A DNA stretch of 64,000 bases from a virus: positions 1 through 64,000 of IMG/VR virus record IMGVR_UViG_3300005096_000005; one strand, given 5' to 3'. Within the stretch, counting starts at the first letter, position 1, and every line of letters starts with the position of its first letter. The notes below the pieces were generated by a model. It saw nothing but the letters and a program-made list of their open reading frames with translations, searched no databases and was not told the DNA's origin. Position numbers and translations under genes: made by a program. Shown here in pieces: positions 15,434-15,586 of this stretch.

Positions 15434-15494
15434 GGGCGTACATACACTGTTGGCTTACAAACCTACGTGGGTTCGAATCCCACTGTCTCCTCCA
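15434..15494 (+). tRNA. Permuted tRNA: 3' half (upstream part)
   Basis: Starts with the 3' half of the intron element: GGGCGTAC (15434-15441), joint ATACA, CTG, TGGCT, UACAAAC (15456-15462). The tRNA 3' half follows: CTAC, T-arm GTGGG-TTCGAAT-CCCAC, acceptor strand TGTCTCC (15484-15490), T73 and an encoded CCA. There is no D-arm or anticodon arm upstream in a usable form. TGTCTCC is the exact complement of GGAGACA at 15507, which begins the 5' half only 12 bases downstream. Confidence 0.82.
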
Positions 15495-15506
15495 TGGTTT
15501 CGACCC

Positions 15507-15586
15507 GGAGACATGGCCGAGCGGCTCAAGGCACTTGAATGCGGATCAAGCAATGTTTATTACAGCCAGCTCTACCAGGTACGCCC
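15507..15586 (+). tRNA. Permuted tRNA: 5' half (downstream part), anticodon GCG
   Basis: Acceptor strand GGAGACA, TG, D-arm GCCGAGCGGCTCAAGGC, anticodon stem CTTGA/TCAAG with loop ATGCGGA (U33, anticodon GCG, codon CGC), then CAAT, about 15507-15554. The 5' half of the intron element follows: GTTT, AGCCA (15564-15568), ACCAG, GTACGCCC (15579-15586). No T-arm follows. GTACGCCC pairs perfectly with GGGCGTAC in the upstream half, and AGCCA with TGGCT. Joined, the halves give a full tRNA. The D-arm looks Ser/Leu-like while the anticodon says Arg, so identity is open. Confidence 0.8.

Follow-up and report, generated by a model that had tools for sequence, protein, structure and literature searches.

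The element at positions 15434-15586 (plus strand) of the window, the 64,000-nucleotide stretch of virus DNA analysed in this study (positions 1 to 64,000 of IMG/VR record IMGVR_UViG_3300005096_000005), probably encodes a YrlA-type Y RNA; we put the probability at about 0.8. Phage Y RNAs are a known kind of RNA. YrlA consists of a stem formed by the paired 5' and 3' ends and a tRNA-like domain, and is bound by Rsr and PNPase (PMC8394870). The bacterial Y RNA 6CU1 superposes on tRNA and is circularly permuted relative to it (PMC11472068); in YrlA, a natural RNA, the permuted order of the tRNA-like domain arises without splicing (PMC11472068, PMC8394870). In Salmonella, the Y RNAs and Ro are encoded in one operon (PMC7790460), and TROVE proteins are on record in jumbo phages (PMC7824862). 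The YrlA traits present at 15434-15586 are a Ro60/Rsr gene in the neighbourhood, a stem of paired ends with an internal loop, and a permuted, capped tRNA-like domain.

The element starts with the 5' strand of the stalk (15434-15462), which comprises P3' GGGCGTAC (15434-15441), the internal loop ATACACT, P2' GTTGGCT (15449-15455), and the motif TACAAAC. The T-arm, the acceptor 3' strand, and T73 follow (15463-15491); read directly from the sequence, the T-stem GTGGG/CCCAC with its loop TTCGAAT occupies 15467-15483, TGTCTCC occupies 15484-15490, T is at 15491, and CCA is at 15492-15494. This CCA-like triplet and a 12-nt spacer (15495-15506) cap the acceptor stem (15492-15506). Since almost none of the window's other tRNAs has an encoded CCA, the triplet may be accidental. 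The next segment (15507-15550) carries the acceptor 5' strand GGAGACA (15507-15513), the D-arm, and a complete anticodon arm with the loop ATGCGGA (CTTGA ATGCGGA TCAAG, 15534-15550). A linker and the 3' strand of the stalk complete the element (15551-15586), with P2 AGCCAGC (15564-15570), the internal loop TCTACCAG, and P3 GTACGCCC (15579-15586). The initial annotation had described a permuted tRNA gene flanked by intron halves that re-pair. Sequence reading confirmed the permuted order, in which the T-arm and the 3' acceptor strand lie upstream of the 5' acceptor strand, the D-arm, and the anticodon arm; the two pieces taken in reverse order also give one tRNA fold. The flanks pair as described, by 8 bp in P3 (GGGCGTAC with GTACGCCC) and by 7 bp in P2 (GTTGGCT with AGCCAGC), for which 5 bp had been claimed.

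The minimum free energy fold of the unspliced RNA contains both stalk helices, the T-arm, the spacer-capped acceptor, and the D-arm. Its stability corresponds to a z of -2.8, and 2 of 200 shuffles were equally stable. As a chance control, TACAAAC was planted in Markov-shuffled local sequence, and the two-helix score was determined at 4008 anchors. A score of 38 was reached by one planted anchor; 15434-15586 scored 38.7 and a neighbouring element at 14950-15104 scored 38.9. The anatomy of 15434-15586 is above chance. The permuted copy was detected by neither ARAGORN nor the Rfam tRNA search.

Seven tRNA-bodied stalk elements form an array within 1.5 kb of the window (14950-16459, plus strand); two have the permuted arrangement and five have bodies in normal order. 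Their shared core is P2, internal loop, P3, internal loop, P2', and (U)UACAAAC. The second putative permuted Y RNA (14950-15104) has its stalk strands (P2 AGTAAGCG/CGCTTACT, P3 TGTCGCAC/GTGCGGCA) around a whole tRNA body, called tRNA-Asn ATT by ARAGORN. Among the normal-order copies, the stalk hairpin lies within the anticodon stem in copy B (15110-15262, Leu-TAG-like body, hairpin 15152-15215) and copy D (15662-15813, without U33, hairpin at about 15703-15765), and in the D-loop in copy G (16322-16459, tRNA-like body with anticodon TGA and a short variable loop, hairpin 16349-16399). Its place within the body is less clear in copy E (15885-16018, tRNA-like, without U33, hairpin 15902-15953) and copy F (16067-16201, divergent tRNA-like body, hairpin 16099-16149). 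When the P3 tip was replaced by GAAA (our substitution), all seven window stalks aligned without gaps. In this alignment, 98.6% of the P2/P3 cells were paired and both sides were changed in six of ten pairs; the covariation score was reached by none of 500 shuffles, and slid controls were 6-54% paired. Between two Y RNA copies, 15814-15884 holds a very stable 70-nt hairpin (AAGTGGTG..CACCACTT, z -4.5) with a tRNA-like outline and without the stalk motif.

The stalk element is also present in bacterial contigs and in no fewer than eight further phage records, usually next to a Ro60 (Rsr) ortholog, which is the location expected for Y RNA genes. A first broad pattern search yielded chance matches only, a strict pattern matched no bacterial genome, and many matches of the T-arm pattern were ordinary Val-TAC tRNAs and were discarded. 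Pattern searches of IMG/VR found the same element in five loci (L046/L096, L062/L097, L068/L098, L086/L099, and L088/L100). Permuted copies adjoin Ro in six of the bacterial contigs that carry the 298-aa protein described below (L133, L135, L136, L137, L138, and L143), and several permuted copies in phage locus L127 carry, by eye, the variant TACATAC. Fourteen natural unpermuted hairpins from three other phages (L098, L099, and L131) form the same two helices, with the covarying consensus GCTTTnnCGACTTGGACAnGAAAnTGTCCCCTACAGTnnAAGCTTACAAAC; 95% of their positions were paired and 8 of 12 pairs were changed on both sides. A covariance model built from these 14 hairpins alone, with the window sequences excluded, was run on the 64-kb window. 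The top four matches, and 7 of all 10, fell inside the 1.5-kb array, each single match there being weak (E 0.05-2.5). LR756511.1 (L131, 270000-312000) is a 595-kb metagenomic phage and the sole INPHARED record with this Ro. About 20 Ro-stalk elements precede the Ro gene of this phage; some lie inside tRNA bodies, and others are plain stem-loops, including ones with loops of 16, 18, and 27 nt and no tRNA. Overall, some homologous copies enclose just 16-30 nt and no tRNA, and the linkers between body and P2 vary widely across copies. Many bodies have perfect anticodon stems, most with U33, which is absent from D, E, the L096 His body, L099 8898, and L131 20632; stems of this quality exceed the needs of a mere mimic. 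On the minus strand of L068, two compact group I introns of about 190-200 nt (7988-8175 and 8980-9178) were observed in or near the tRNA array of this related phage.

The Ro60/Rsr (TROVE-VWA) ortholog of the window, the expected Y RNA partner, is encoded at 23030-24553 (plus strand), 7.4 kb downstream of the array on the same strand, with ordinary tRNAs between. Its profile (A1) matches Deinococcus radiodurans Rsr (2nvo, E 1e-4) and TROVE proteins. An unnamed 298-aa protein (24947-25843, plus strand) belongs to a family that accompanies Ro in both phages and bacteria. Searches of Pfam and NCBIfam gave no match for it, and its AlphaFold model was unusable (pLDDT 47). It has the C-terminal motif AGICLSGxD, and relatives were found in IMG/VR phages and in 18 bacterial contigs, mostly encoded in the vicinity of Ro and a ThiF-like gene. 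The family occupies six IMG/VR loci, of which two are new (L127 and L130), both with Ro, the ThiF-like gene, and stalk elements. The third member of the shared cassette is a ThiF/E1-like gene (28999-29640, plus strand). When all open reading frames of six phages were compared, the only proteins common to at least four were the Ro60/Rsr-like, 298-aa, and ThiF-like proteins, encoded downstream of the array and on its strand. This cassette is nearly all that two otherwise unrelated phages (G000 and G009) have in common. A PRTRC identity for the cassette was considered and rejected, as nothing beyond a weak ThiF match was found. Elsewhere in the window, a MoxR-type AAA ATPase gene and, after it, a gene with a VWA-like motif occupy 6417-9331.

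The Rfam YrlA model gave chance-level matches only in the window, and none of significance at 15434-15586. Divergence puts a direct Rfam match out of reach for the window copy, so its assignment to YrlA rests on a chain that leads from the window array, via the same core and the same gene cassette, to homologs that match YrlA. A permuted L127 copy (32.2 bits, E 9.4e-5) and the L137 copy (38.9 bits, E 5.5e-7) matched Rfam YrlA stem by stem, with neither reaching the gathering score. In homologs, AAACTTG is identical to the YrlA loop strand AaAcUuG, and GACTTG resembles it; the window loop, CTACCAG / ATACACT, has diverged from the consensus AaAcUuG / AUGC. Like YrlA (Rfam RF02553; Salmonella YrlA, PDB 6CU1), the window element has an end-paired stalk with an internal loop, followed in permuted order by the T-arm, capped acceptor, and D-arm, and it has a Ro60 ortholog nearby. 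Unlike known YrlA, which lacks an anticodon arm, the window copy retains a full one. Its stalk is joined at the variable region instead of replacing the anticodon arm, the stalk end is UUACAAAC, and the window holds seven copies, of which five are unpermuted. The permuted T-arm and acceptor are also shared with two-piece permuted tmRNA (Rfam RF04321), but that model scored only 14 bits (E 3.2) and the window element has complete D- and anticodon arms. The lack of a significant YrlA match, the diverged loop, the 7.4 kb to Ro, and the intact anticodon arms count against a Y RNA.

Permuted tRNA genes of algae and archaea have bulge-helix-bulge junctions and are processed by the tRNA splicing endonuclease. 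The window element resembles them in having the 3' half before the 5' half and a short spacer between the acceptor strands, and differs in that no endonuclease gene was found and its flanks are a conserved, Ro-linked stalk. If the element were such a gene, the halves would pair, the intron would be excised, and a circular pre-tRNA would be opened by end-processing; the hairpin of the unpermuted copies would then be an ordinary small tRNA intron. Stalk removal does give good tRNAs in many copies, such as CCTCC CTTAGGA GGGGG (Leu-TAG) from B and CTCTG CTTATAA CAGAG (Ile-TAT) from L096, and U33 and full anticodon stems are kept in most bodies. We nevertheless consider this origin unlikely: the copies that close 16-30 nt without a tRNA are inexplicable by any splicing model, the 5' splice site is not conserved while body-P2 linkers vary widely, several bodies lack U33, and the linkage to Ro and the matches to YrlA point elsewhere. 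RtcB, Rnl2-type ligase, and EndA were not found in G000-G003, G008, and G009, where they were searched for, which also speaks against splicing. The tRNA-intron endonuclease family PF01974 was absent from six phage records, including the window's own, and was detected in four archaeal controls; a PF09511 search was uninformative, as it detected no control. The proposal that splicing removes the flanks as intron halves and so produces a tRNA was unsupported: the flanks form a single instance of a conserved, covarying stem that aligns without gaps with six other elements and recurs beside Ro60 orthologs in phages and bacteria. A group I intron was discarded for the window, which had no Rfam RF00028 match; separate group I introns occur in L068 and L086. 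A tiny self-splicing intron was our working idea before Ro was found; the tRNA-free loops, the lack of a 5' splice site, and the linkage to Ro led us to abandon it. It is rather improbable that the Ro stalk is a removable module, excised either by host enzymes or by Ro acting together with the linked 298-aa and E1-like proteins. If so, the copies would be functional tRNAs with a new, protein-dependent splicing, and the permuted ones would give circular intermediates.

The elements could also be functional hybrids of tRNA and Y RNA that stay unspliced. The body would then be charged, or put to use, in its Ro-bound state, and Ro would serve to store, protect, or deliver the tRNAs of the phage. 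Unpermuted copies, whose acceptor ends are free and whose anticodon arms are correct (for example Phe-GAA, Arg-TCT, and Asn-GTT in L099), would fit such a role, but decoding should be impeded by inserts in the anticodon stem or D-loop, G lacks the long variable arm of Ser tRNAs despite its anticodon TGA, and Asn bodies bear the anticodon ATT; we regard hybrids as very unlikely. That two unrelated broken tRNA halves pair by accident is hardly credible. An 11-nt repeat, GACCCGGAGAC (15378 and 15502), suggests rearrangement, but equally good pairing occurred at just 1 of the 4008 random anchors, homologs exist elsewhere, and the covariation of the seven aligned copies already contradicts debris. 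The initial annotation held that an intact copy of the tRNA elsewhere would mark the halves as debris. No intact tRNA with the same anticodon was found: the tRNA matches of the whole 170-kb record all lie inside the window and none has the anticodon GCG of 15434-15586, so the element is not the debris of an intact twin.

For the preferred YrlA-type Y RNA, we infer expression, binding by Ro, and a function, alongside the anatomy, conservation, covariation, and Ro linkage observed. The primary transcript of 15434-15586 would itself be the functional RNA, and splicing would be unnecessary. It would begin and end in the two-part stalk (P3, asymmetric internal loop, and P2), to which the phage Ro60/Rsr ortholog is expected to bind, and its other end would be the permuted tRNA-like domain with the T-arm, the acceptor capped by a short loop, the D-arm, and the full anticodon arm. 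Most likely, the Ro ring would hold the stalk and present the tRNA-shaped end, which may serve to tether or gate an RNA-processing enzyme, as is the case for PNPase in known Ro-Y RNA complexes. Alternatively, this end may divert anticodon nucleases as a decoy during infection or provide shelter from them, a role that Hughes et al. suggested for YrlA (PMC7790460). Such a role, unlike simple mimicry, would account for the intact anticodon arms. The array points to a use of Ro-Y RNA complexes by phages that extends over many tRNA isotypes and is plausibly connected with tRNA-targeting defence; it also points to an unnamed Ro-linked protein family.

What seems new here is the seven-copy array, two copies permuted and five in normal order with an internal stalk hairpin, together with the linked unnamed protein family. 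Outside the primary Y RNA papers, we know of no account that places normal-order tRNA bodies carrying an inserted Ro stalk next to permuted ones, reports an array of this size, or describes the 298-aa partner family. Nor, to our knowledge, has the origin of the permuted tRNA mimicry of YrlA been explained. The 11-nt repeat flanks the permuted copy (29 of 5000 shuffles scored equally) and fits permutation by tandem duplication. Because permuted and unpermuted bodies with the same stalk also lie side by side, a route of origin becomes testable, namely duplication and permutation of a tRNA that carried an inserted Ro hairpin, and the array may show how these tRNA mimics originated. Apart from the array, the window carries a bacterial-type amber suppressor tRNA (CTA; 784-858), called tRNA-Pyl by ARAGORN, and the phage may recode UAG.
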